This document shows positions 2,499-42,560 of a stretch of 43,538 nucleotides of DNA, piece by piece. The DNA comes from an uncultured Asticcacaulis sp. (lineage in GTDB: Bacteria > Pseudomonadota > Alphaproteobacteria > Caulobacterales > Caulobacteraceae): the NCBI GenBank assembly GCA_936940865.1, contig CAKZJB010000225.1, forward strand, positions 1-43,538. The letters run 5' to 3'. A program made the position numbers and the translations under genes. Numbering within the stretch: the stretch's first letter is position 1; every line of letters begins with the position of its first letter. The notes beneath the pieces are model-generated. The model ran no database searches and was not told the origin of the DNA. It saw only the letters and a program-made list of their open reading frames with translations.

Positions 2499-2632
2499 AT
2501 ACCAACGGCGATTGGCATTGACTCGATCGCCGTTGGCAAGGGCGACTGCCCGCCGCCGCCAATGCGGCGAGCCATGCGGCGTCTGAGCTAAAAAAACGAA
2601 TACCAACGGTCATTCTTTATGACCGTTGGTAT
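2499..2632. repeat. ATACCAACGG repeat, long copy 1
   Basis: 134-bp element with 10-bp terminal inverted repeats ATACCAACGG / CCGTTGGTAT. It contains two hairpins: an outer-end one (CCAACGGCGAT ... ATCGCCGTTGG) and a perfect 14-bp stem at 2600-2632. It is about 94% identical to the element at 22785-22919, and related single-hairpin copies lie at 20126-20166 and 42521-42560. It starts 21 bp after the M16 peptidase stop codon. MITE-like or REP-like by structure. Confidence 0.85.
2590..2632 (-). terminator. Intrinsic terminator carried by repeat copy 1
   Basis: On the bottom strand, 14-bp perfect stem (2632-2619 with 2613-2600, 5-base loop) followed after CG by seven Ts (2596-2590). It would end transcripts leaving the M16 peptidase gene. 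Confidence 0.7.
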
Positions 2633-18417: not shown

Positions 18418-19704
18418 CTACCAGTTGAACATGGTGCCGTCTTTCAGGCGGTTCACCGGCAGGTAGGCGCGCTTGTACGGATAGAGTTTCGCCTTGTCCT
18501 CGTCGAAATCGACGCCCAGGCCCGGCGCTTCGGAACAGTACATGAAGCCGCTCTCGAACCGGTAGCTGTTGGGGAAGACCTCGTAGGTGGCGTCGGTGTG
18601 GCGCATGAATTCCTGGATGCCGAAGTTCGGGATCGACAGGTCGAAATGCAGTGCCGCCGCCATGGTGACCGGCGACAGGTCGGTGGCGCCGTGACAGCCG
18701 GTCCGCACATTGTGCAGGTCGGCCAGCATGGCGACCTTGCGCAGGTGCGTGATGCCGCCCGTGTGAACGATGGTGGCGCGGATATAGTCGATCAACTGGT
18801 TCTGGATCAGGTCCTTGCAGTCCCAGATCGAGTTGAAGATTTCGCCGACGGCCAGCGGCGTCGTCGTATGGCTCCGGATCAAACGGAAATTGTCCTGGTT
18901 CTCGGCAGGTGTGGCGTCCTCGATCCAGAAGGGGCGGAAGGGTTCCAGGTCGCGGCCGAGCCGGCCGGCCTCGATCGGCGTCAGCCGATGATGGACGTCG
19001 TGCAGCAGGTGGACGTCTTCGCCGAGCGCCTCGCGTGCCGCCGCGAACAGTTTCGGCACCACGCGCATATAGGCCGCCGTGTCCCAGACGTCCTCCGCCG
19101 GCAGGTCGCTGTCGGCGGGTTCGTAGAATGTCTTGTGCTTGGAGACGCCGTAGGTGGCGTCCAGGCCCGGCACGCCGCACTGGATGCGGATCGCCTGATA
19201 GCCCTTTTCCTTGTATTCCAGCGCGGCCTCGACCGTGTCCCCGATCGATTTGCCGTTGGCGTGGCCATAGACCATGACGGCGCTGCGGCAGGCGCCGCCC
19301 AGCAGCTGATAGACCGGCAGGCCGGCGATCTTGCCCTTGATGTCCCACAGCGCCATGTCGACGGCGGCGATCGCCGACATGGTGACCGGGCCGCGCCGCC
19401 AGTAGGCGCCGCGATAGAGGAACTGCCAGATGTCCTCGATCTGGTGGGCGTCGCGCCCGATCAGGCAGGGAATGACGTGCTCTTCCAGGTAGGCGGCGAC
19501 GGCCAGTTCGCGGCCATTCAGCGTGGCGTCGCCGATGCCGTATATGCCCTGGTCGGTCTCGATCTTGAGCGTGACGAAATTGCGGCCGGGGCAGGTGACG
19601 ATGACGCGGGCGGCGGTGATGCGGGCGCGAACGCCGCTCTTGGACGCGGAATCATCGGACGCGGAACCGTCGCGTCCGAAGCCATCCTGGCGGCTGGTGT
19701 CCAT
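18418..19704 (-). CDS. manD: D-mannonate dehydratase (enolase superfamily)
   Basis: 428 aa. Converts D-mannonate to 2-keto-3-deoxygluconate in the glucuronate pathway. [20 protein letters not shown], the metal-site [20 protein letters not shown] and AVGEIFNS (Asp, Glu, Glu ligands with His of HDVHH), and [10 protein letters not shown] (catalytic-type His) match Novosphingobium ManD/RspA enzymes. Start ATG 19704 (GTG 19707 also possible; AGGAG upstream). Homologues usually begin near ITAARVIV; here about 30 extra Ser/Asp/Gly-rich residues precede it, encoded partly by the direct repeat GGACGCGGAA (19642, 19657). First gene of manD-aguA, divergent from a GntR regulator. Confidence 0.9.
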
Positions 19705-20070
19705 CACGCTGCTACTCTCCTTGACTTCATGCCTGTGGCCGTGGGCTGCGGCCATAGGTCAAACCAATTCCAGATTGGACCGCCATGCGGCGGAATGCAA
19801 GCGATTTTGCTGGCCTCGCGGTCTTTCGCGTCTACCGGGGCGCGGAATCGAAGCGTCCGCGGTGTAGCGAGGAATACCGGACACCTCCGCACGGCCATGT
19901 GGCCAGCTATGCCAGTGCAATGAAGATTAAACGGAAACCATGCGCATGTGCCGAATATTTTTTCGGGGGAAAATACTTCCGGTCGCGAGCTGTGATGGTA
20001 TGGCAATCTGAAGCCGGGGGACCGTTGCCTTGGGCGATATCCCGGAAGGGCCGACATTGTCTGCGAATGA

Positions 20071-20083
20071 ATGGTCAGACCAT
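20071..20083. promoter_or_regulatory. GntR/FadR-type operator
   Basis: ATGGTCAGACCAT is a perfect palindrome around CAG. It fits TGGTNNNACCA, the form bound by FCD-domain GntR regulators (FadR, LldR, UxuR types). It lies between manD and the GntR gene at 20331, so it is the likely site of auto- and operon regulation. Confidence 0.7.
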
Positions 20084-20125
20084 GTTCCGGCGACAGGCCT
20101 GTTTTTCGCCACCAATGCCTGTGTG

Positions 20126-20166
20126 ATACCAACGGCGATTGGCTTTGACTCGATCGCCGTTGGTAT
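20126..20166. repeat. ATACCAACGG repeat, short copy 3
   Basis: 41-bp hairpin ATACCAACGGCGAT ... ATCGCCGTTGGTAT. It equals the left hairpin unit of the long elements at 2499 and 22785. It sits in the manD-gntR intergenic region, not next to a stop codon. Confidence 0.85.
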
Positions 20167-20330
20167 GAGCGCCATCTTTGTCCTGTCCCTTTCCGGTGTC
20201 GCCGCAGTGACGCCGATCGATTTCGCCAGTGGTCAGGACATTCGGCCCGTGCGCCTCCGTTCGCGAATCCAGTTGAAAGGCGGCGGCGAACCGGCATATT
20301 GATCCTTGTCATCATTCAGCCAGCCAGCCG

Positions 20331-22752: not shown

Positions 22753-22784
22753 TGGGCCTCCAGGCGTGATTTTCGGGCAGCATA

Positions 22785-22919
22785 ATACCAACGGCGATCG
22801 GCTTTGACTCGATCGCCGTTGGCAAGGGCGACCGCCCGCCGCCGCCAATGCGGCGAGCCATGCGGCGTTTGAGCTGAAAAAAACGAATACCGACGGTCAT
22901 TCTTTATGGCCGTTGGTAT
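22785..22919. repeat. ATACCAACGG repeat, long copy 2
   Basis: 135-bp element, about 94% identical to 2499-2632 and in the same orientation, with the same 10-bp terminal inverted repeats. The ends extend to a 12-bp TAATACCAACGG / CCGTTGGTATTA. It starts 32 bp upstream of the lipoprotein gene start and ends 29 bp after the AsmA stop codon. Confidence 0.85.
22877..22919 (-). terminator. Intrinsic terminator carried by repeat copy 2
   Basis: Bottom-strand hairpin (22919-22906 with 22900-22887, two mismatches relative to copy 1's perfect stem) followed by seven Ts (22883-22877). It lies just downstream of the AsmA stop codon. Confidence 0.65.
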
Positions 22920-22948
22920 TAGATGGGATCTGCGTCGAAACGATGGCC

Positions 22949-42520: not shown

Positions 42521-42560
42521 ATACCAACGGAGACCGAGTCGAAGTCAATGCCGTTGGTAT
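42521..42560. repeat. ATACCAACGG repeat, short copy 4
   Basis: 40-bp hairpin ATACCAACGG ... CCGTTGGTAT with a perfect 12-bp end pair (TTATACCAACGG/CCGTTGGTATAA). It sits 21 bp downstream of the GIN-protein stop codon. In reverse orientation it shares the GACTCG core with copy 3. Confidence 0.85.

Follow-up and report, generated by a model that had tools for sequence, protein, structure and literature searches.

A family of structured intergenic elements in Asticcacaulis, probably comprising an old solo-core and a young MITE-like 134-bp form

Introduction

Whether a small structured repeat is a genomic parasite or an element useful to the cell is difficult to decide, because the copies found within a single genome do not separate the two. 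In the Caulobacteraceae, such a repeat has been described as the Caulobacter CcrM-associated intergenic repeat (CIR; Chen and Shapiro 2003), summarized in PMC2229807 and PMC10969869. The table in PMC2229807 lists CIR with no terminal inverted repeat and with its target duplication as unknown, and according to this 2007 review its function had not been determined. Comparable systems are the pneumococcal BOX, RUP and SPRITE repeats (PMC3049150) and the CGTC-tagged REP palindromes (PMC3733652). Here, we characterize a repeat first noticed in a single Asticcacaulis contig, where it had been proposed to act as a mobile terminator, and follow it through the genus and the surrounding bacterial family.

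Results

The window, i.e. the whole 43,538-nucleotide stretch of DNA analysed here, belongs to an Asticcacaulis genome of 5.07 Mb in 245 contigs. Four repeat copies are present where they were originally predicted, two long ones at 2499-2632 (copy 1) and 22785-22919 (copy 2) and two short ones at 20126-20166 (copy 3) and 42521-42560 (copy 4). The long copies are nearly identical (95% by BLAST, compared with ca. 94% in the first description) and both carry the terminal inverted repeats ATACCAACGG...CCGTTGGTAT. Copy 1 reads on the plus strand as hairpin A (P1, 2502-2536) with GACTC, a GANTC (CcrM) site, in its loop (2520-2524), followed by the covarying stems P2 (GGGC-GACT-GCCC, 2540-2551) and P3 (CGCCGC-CAAT-GCGGCG, 2554-2569, with alternative alleles elsewhere), a tail conserved in the alignment (AGCCATGCGGCGTCTGAGCT, 2570-2589), an A-tract seen in the sequence and by a terminator scan (2590-2596, a T-tract on the bottom strand) and finally hairpin B (P4, 2600-2632) with a 14-bp stem. 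The two outer hairpins of each long copy had been recognized from the start; the inner stems P2 and P3 had been missed. Flank comparison revealed a 3-bp TNA duplication around copy 1, with the TAA at 2497-2499 identical to that at 2632-2634. Copy 2 shows the same layout on the same strand (P1 at 22788-22822 with GACTC at 22806-22810, then the core, the A-tract and hairpin B at 22887-22919), and its flanks are unequal, with TAA at 22783-22785 and TTA at 22919-22921. The terminator scan flagged hairpin B and the T-tract of copy 1 on the bottom strand under its terminator definition, confirming the predicted 14-bp stem followed by TCGTTTTTTT. Copy 2 went unflagged because G.T pairs of its B stem on the plus strand become A.C on the bottom strand.

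Copies 3 and 4 consist of hairpin A alone with a GANTC loop and contain no T-tract. Copy 3 (plus strand, GACTC loop at 20147-20151) is flanked by TGA on both sides, and copy 4 (minus strand, GAGTC at 42536-42540) by TTA and TAA, so that flanks are equal for copies 1 and 3 and unequal for copies 2 and 4. Pfam confirmed the names given to the leftward genes next to copies 1, 2 and 4 (M16, AsmA and GIN-domain). The spacers from their stop codons measure 20, 29 and 21 bp, as predicted for copies 2 and 4; the 21 bp given for copy 1 needs correction. Copy 3 does not follow a stop codon, as its neighbours, a leftward enolase-superfamily gene and a rightward GntR gene, both turn their starts toward it; it is overlapped by a minus-strand open reading frame (19704-20315) without a Pfam match.

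The long copies belong to a larger, genus-wide family that is absent from Rfam. Within the window, the 10-mer ATACCAACGG with up to two mismatches is barely above chance (38 vs 25.3; 1 of 100 shuffles). Over the whole genome it occurs 139 times, compared with 10 times for the reversed control, and BLAST returned about 40 full or partial copies of the 134-bp repeat, two of them identical. A covariance model yielded 112 matches in this genome at E<=0.01, the weakest of which are doubtful, and found matches in 24 of 25 Asticcacaulis genomes, ranging from 2 to at least 148 per genome (the latter in G012, where 148 of 150 scored candidates matched). Matches in relatives mainly cover query positions ca. 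35-97, the middle of the 134-bp repeat, and this middle module (P1-P2-P3-tail) also occurs without the ATACC hairpins. We refer to the latter form as the solo-core.

Signals outside the genus were weak. Of the family's 154 other genomes, 63 gave model matches at E<=0.1, the best scoring 30.6 bits compared with 72-100 bits for the within-genus matches listed, and 17 of the outside matches inspected by eye were mostly other palindromes. BLAST of the core against 174 genomes gave one short match outside the genus (in G114), and a 20-mer scan of the core gave 43 stretches, 27 of them in Asticcacaulis and the other 16 looking like chance. Rfam had no match in the window at or above its curated cut-off. 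In six loci searched at E up to 5, none of the eight matches covers the element, those above the cut-off being two tRNAs and a SAM riboswitch. The 134-bp copy had no match among plasmids and phages, viral contigs searched with the neighbouring M16 protein held no relative, and a literature search (the 10-mer, by title, and repeat topics) found nothing on such a repeat in Asticcacaulis. An orthology comparison via the M16 gene was dropped, as its best identity outside its own genome was 37%.

Some palindromes of other genera were recorded along the way. In genus g7 (L160, L161, L168, L171 and L174), CGTCCCGGCGAAAGCCGGGATCCA-type palindromes with the look of CGTC-type REPs have a flank similar to P3 plus tail, and genome G154 (L163, L170, L182) carries several near-identical copies of a repeated CTCCCCCTCGC...GAGGGGGAG palindrome block. 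Loci L162 and L173 of G039, a 2.0-Mb genome from another genus of the family, show the P1-P2-P3 order and a GACN loop in a different sequence, with hairpin elements in tandem at L173; these elements are possibly distant relatives.

Aligned elements run in the order P1 (a stem of variable sequence), P2, P3 and the fixed tail AGCCATGCGGCGYTTGAGCT, often followed by an A-tract and a further hairpin, with a core consensus of YTCC-stem-GG, CAA, P2 (loop mostly GACY), P3 and AGCCATGCGGCGYTTGAGCT. Among 62 elements other than the 134-bp form, 41 have AAAA no more than 12 bases from the 3′ end, compared with 2.4% over the whole, mostly coding, loci. A further hairpin stands 3′ of 30 of 61 such elements, where shuffles predict 2.0, and 5′ of 8; the former count includes the B hairpins of longer ATACC-ended copies with P3 modules, which this set contains. 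A 37-bp module (GTCCTCAAGGAGCGAAGCGTCAGGAC...) in P3 is present in one to three tandem copies at L200, L202, L227, L237, L243 and L244, and whole elements are sometimes in tandem as well, e.g. three at C221:23700-23956. GANTC is found in P1 of 21 of 26 long-type elements vs 12 of 93 others, and at the loop of one arm in 22 of 25 long copies of the genome studied here. A coding reading of the core (GKGDCPPPLMRRAMRRLS followed by a stop, judged by eye) was rejected: many solo-core copies lack this stop, again by eye, and the length of P1 is not fixed.

The stems are kept while their sequence changes. In an alignment of 33 copies, 92.5% of paired cells can pair compared with 71.0% after shuffling and 32-40% in slid-alignment controls, and both sides have changed in 13 of 19 pairs (8.7 in shuffles), with compensation in all three stems; P1 arms were placed by an inverted-repeat search and 9 bp were kept, which favours P1, whereas P2 and P3 are independent of this choice. 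P1 is the most varied part, with 69 distinct arms among 119 elements. Stem types of P2 and P3 were counted in 84 elements with the 53-base core. Both stems come in several types with full compensation, P2 as GGGC/GCCC, GCGC/GCGC, GGCC/GGCC, GACC/GGTC and others, and P3 as CGCCGC/GCGGCG, CGCGCA/TGCGCG, CGTCGC/GCGACG and CGGCGC/GCGCCG. Many elements (e.g. L048, L054 and L060) have the P3 allele CCGAGC/GCGAGG, where a tandem GA/AG takes the place of two pairs, and this allele itself varies in step (CCGAAC/GTGAGG).

In the long copies, both P1 and the last hairpin end in ATACC...GGTAT. The original prediction saw these ends as possible TA insertion sites; they instead fit a TNA duplication around TACC...GGTA. 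Flanks read TNA in 30 of 32 cases on the left and 31 of 32 on the right, and 23 of the 32 long copies have the identical triplet on both sides, compared with a mean of 10.0 and a maximum of 21 in 20,000 permutations; this leaves 9 with unequal flanks, window copy 2 among them. Three of these 32 represent one site in three genomes, and two that look mis-detected (L342 and L025) were kept. A broader, unfiltered scan gave equal flanks for 26 of 44 long units vs 2 of 28 short ones, many of the latter being hairpin B inside a long copy. The proposed MITE character is supported by the terminal inverted repeats, the 3-bp TNA duplication and the many near-identical copies, and sequence comparison thus supports the view that the long copies behave like a MITE moved in trans, with the duplication read from the flanks.

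Orthologous sites were used to follow single insertions, at genes whose names (TrmH-like methyltransferase and GNAT) were assigned by eye. Downstream of the methyltransferase-like gene, the long element is found in G006, G015 and G019 and only hairpin B in G007; G004, G016, G001 and G013 lack the element there and their spacer does not align. At this site the long element is no more conserved than its flanks. The solo-hairpin derivatives suggested earlier are supported at one site as products of deletion, and window copies 3 and 4 may have the same origin.

The GNAT-like gene is present in 20 of 25 genomes. A solo-core lies downstream of it in G004 and G016, and is absent from G015, G007, G006 and G019 as well as from the more distant G001. 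Since the GNAT-like protein of G004 is closer to those of G015, G007, G006 and G019 than to that of G016, either a gain plus a loss or two gains are needed. Between the two carriers, one P1 pair has changed from C-G to T-A, another P1 pair is broken in G016 and one P2 pair is broken in G004. Comparison with the empty site showed near-duplicates only at the solo-core flanks and no exact target duplication. In G004 (L042/L275), where the element is present, the GNAT-like gene stops within P1 and encodes a different C-terminus. Over 12 orthologous pairs drawn from the fetched loci, two of which share one locus, the element is identical at 903 of 933 positions (97%) compared with 537 of 607 (88%) in the adjacent 25-base flanks; it scores above both flanks in 8 of these pairs, with a tie in another 2 and a value below at least one flank in the remaining 2. 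A thirteenth pair, L098/L296, was left out of these sums (element 79%, flanks 23% and 56%); its P1 differs widely and all three stems still pair. The solo-core is present or absent as a unit and keeps its fold where it is retained, as seen from the covariation, the slower change than in the flanks and the empty site. G000 and G017 (L191 and L318) share an element site beside a gene; P1 and P3 of the two elements are quite different, which may reflect ancient retention or repeated insertion.

The placement survey covered 89 copies of the genome studied here (62 of the 112 model matches plus 27 long copies), with genes called by a simple home-made caller trained on the fetched loci; L025, L028 and L029, which lie at contig ends, were excluded, and the window copies took the place of L001 and L015. 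None of the 89 copies lies inside a called gene; in another genome, L078 holds a solo-core element inside a called open reading frame. The nearest gene end is a 3′ end for 57 of 81 copies. Counted by themselves, sides facing a 3′ end show no excess (62 of 116 and 31 of 54). In gaps between genes of the same direction, elements other than the 134-bp form are nearer to the 3′ end in 23 of 29 cases (p 0.002) and long copies in 12 of 17 (p 0.14).

Discussion

We consider it probable that these repeats form one family of structured intergenic Asticcacaulis elements, with an old solo-core and a young, amplified, MITE-like 134-bp form. The solo-core (ca. 75-110 bp) would be the basic element, tending toward gene 3′ ends. 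In the 134-bp form, P1 and the last hairpin would have turned into ATACC...GGTAT hairpins that serve as terminal repeats, and insertion would duplicate a TNA target, to judge by flanks and not by an empty site. Cutting would be done by a transposase supplied in trans, most plausibly of IS5/IS1031 type, and recombination between the repeated hairpin ends could delete the middle and leave a solo hairpin A or B. Nearby genes may be affected through protection of mRNA 3′ ends, a bidirectional stop of transcription or CcrM methylation at the A loop. Since the folded shape is kept while the sequence changes, the family may serve the cell and not merely be a genomic parasite, although repair of quasi-palindromes by template switching could also keep the stems perfect even if no selection acted on them. 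Within a single genus, one would find a young mobile layer whose target duplications can still be read next to an older one that is kept at orthologous sites with compensatory change. At what point and for what reason a mobile hairpin element turns useful could be tested in such a setting, which also ties the question directly to the CcrM methylation sites of Caulobacterales.

What the elements do at gene ends can be approached through the strand on which they fold. In a mobile-terminator reading, they would have spread and been retained because hairpin B and its T-tract end leftward transcription. Parts of this idea hold up: the T-tract is general, with at least five T in the eight bases after hairpin B on the bottom strand in 25 of 26 134-bp copies, copies tend toward gene 3′ ends, copies 1, 2 and 4 sit 20-29 bp past leftward genes, and the frequent AAAA near the 3′ end of the other elements fits as well. 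However, both orientations are used evenly (the 27 long copies have 15 left and 16 right 3′-facing sides, and the 62 other elements have 13 and 13 that abut within 20 bp), a neighbouring gene ends at the B side in 16 of 27 cases vs 15 of 27 for the other side, which gives no excess on the terminating strand, and copies 3 and 4 have no T-tract at all. In addition, 23 of 30 B hairpins, which share descent, contain G.T pairs and fold better on the plus strand, where there is no T-tract, weakening the presumed terminator strand. P1 agrees with this, as its 69 distinct arms show G.U over A.C by 15 to 3 (p 0.008; 12 to 3 without the long type, p 0.035), so that P1 and B point to the plus strand as the folded one, opposite to the proposed terminator strand. 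We therefore regard termination as an unlikely driver of the family; individual copies, copy 1 for instance, may act as terminators, whereas the family as a whole is not accounted for in this way. The same G.U excess is what would be expected if selection acted on a plus-strand RNA running from P1 to the tail, for which mobility would be secondary and which could work as a 3′-end stabilizer, a protein-binding sponge or a small RNA. Compensatory change at orthologous sites and the tandem GA/AG allele, varying in step within an otherwise paired stem, speak for such an RNA. Against it, P2 stems split 2 to 2 between G.U and A.C, orientation shows no bias toward neighbouring genes and no sigma-70-like promoter was found in 500 bases around copies 1 and 2. 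We see this RNA reading as a serious option that nevertheless remains doubtful. A bolder combination, in which the solo-core would be a new class of structured RNA that also moves and settles at gene 3′ ends, its plus-strand fold being selected at each site with stem sequences entirely free to vary, and would have become the cargo of a MITE that targets TNA and brings in a CcrM methylation site, strikes us as rather unlikely; if true, a domesticated and still-spreading RNA element would act on 3′ ends across a bacterial genus.

For the family with an old core and a young mobile form, the enzyme that moves the long copies is the other point to weigh. IS1031-group elements prefer TNA targets and exclusively generate a 3-bp repeat according to PMC12016507, and MITEs of the IS5/IS1031 subgroup have a 3-bp TNA duplication as do the long copies. 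It is a real possibility, which we would put somewhat short of even, that an IS5-family insertion sequence of the IS1031 subgroup, now lost from the genome or unseen, has the long element as its satellite. The TNA flanks fit such a source. The ends do not resemble the single IS1031-group example compared, which begins GAACCTG... (PMC12016507), since the long copies end in TACCAA...TTGGTA within hairpins. No partner was found either, PF01797 being the transposase family searched: the fetched loci contained no transposase with matching ends and lacked TACC-ended units of 600-2800 bp between equal flanks, and the listing of ATACCAACGG sites covered about the first 100 of 139. One candidate for an autonomous partner, an end pair on contig C51, was discarded; it encloses a host-like gene and further copies. 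A REP/RAYT system, in which the hairpins would be REPs moved by a tyrosine transposase, is in our view very improbable. The siting near 3′ ends does resemble that of REPs (PMC3733652), and the genome studied here has two PF01797 genes. Mobilization by RAYT was nevertheless rejected, as PF01797 genes are too rare (4 of 25 genomes, compared with 24 of 25 for the element) and neither of the two adjoins an ATACC hairpin; distant ATACC-ended units were seen at 2 of 9 fetched PF01797 loci, a long copy at L256 and a short one at L254. This class is not known to generate TNA duplications, which further counts against it. The two PF01797 genes themselves (L248 and L252) encode Y1-type transposases at C166:3010-3336 and C166:4283-4609, ca. 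1 kb apart. In G010, a few hundred bases separate the short ATACCAG...CTGGTAT unit at L254:1074-1126, which has an AGCTC and a T-tract, from a PF01797 gene.

Among described systems, the pneumococcal BOX, RUP and SPRITE elements share with the Asticcacaulis family a short, structured, MITE-like build, a terminator-like form and an enrichment between convergent genes or near 3′ ends (PMC3049150). The 37-bp P3 module in one to three tandem copies recalls boxB in its arrangement. The host is unrelated, the architecture differs and the replacement of whole stems does not figure in the description given there. The CGTC-tagged REPs of PMC3733652 are likewise palindromes near gene 3′ ends, common in Alphaproteobacteria, and have no transposase of their own. 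A CGYC stands before P3, and by eye its tail is like that of palindromes matched in other Caulobacteraceae. As defined in that source, these REPs have a stem of 8-9 bp with AT pairs at positions 1-2 and form one hairpin, whereas P3 has 6 bp without such pairs, the tag is partly paired and the element comprises three to four hairpins. CIR, as portrayed in the two sources named above, comes nearest: both have a linker between two hairpin arms, one of which carries GANTC at its loop, and they share TA ends, a length of ca. 110 bp, an intergenic position and the same bacterial family. The Asticcacaulis linker differs from that portrayal in being a covarying P2-P3-tail module that is also found without arms, and the long copies in having terminal inverted repeats, a TNA duplication and solo hairpins. 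Judged purely by architecture and description, CIR would be the closest known kind, and we do not file the long copies as CIR.
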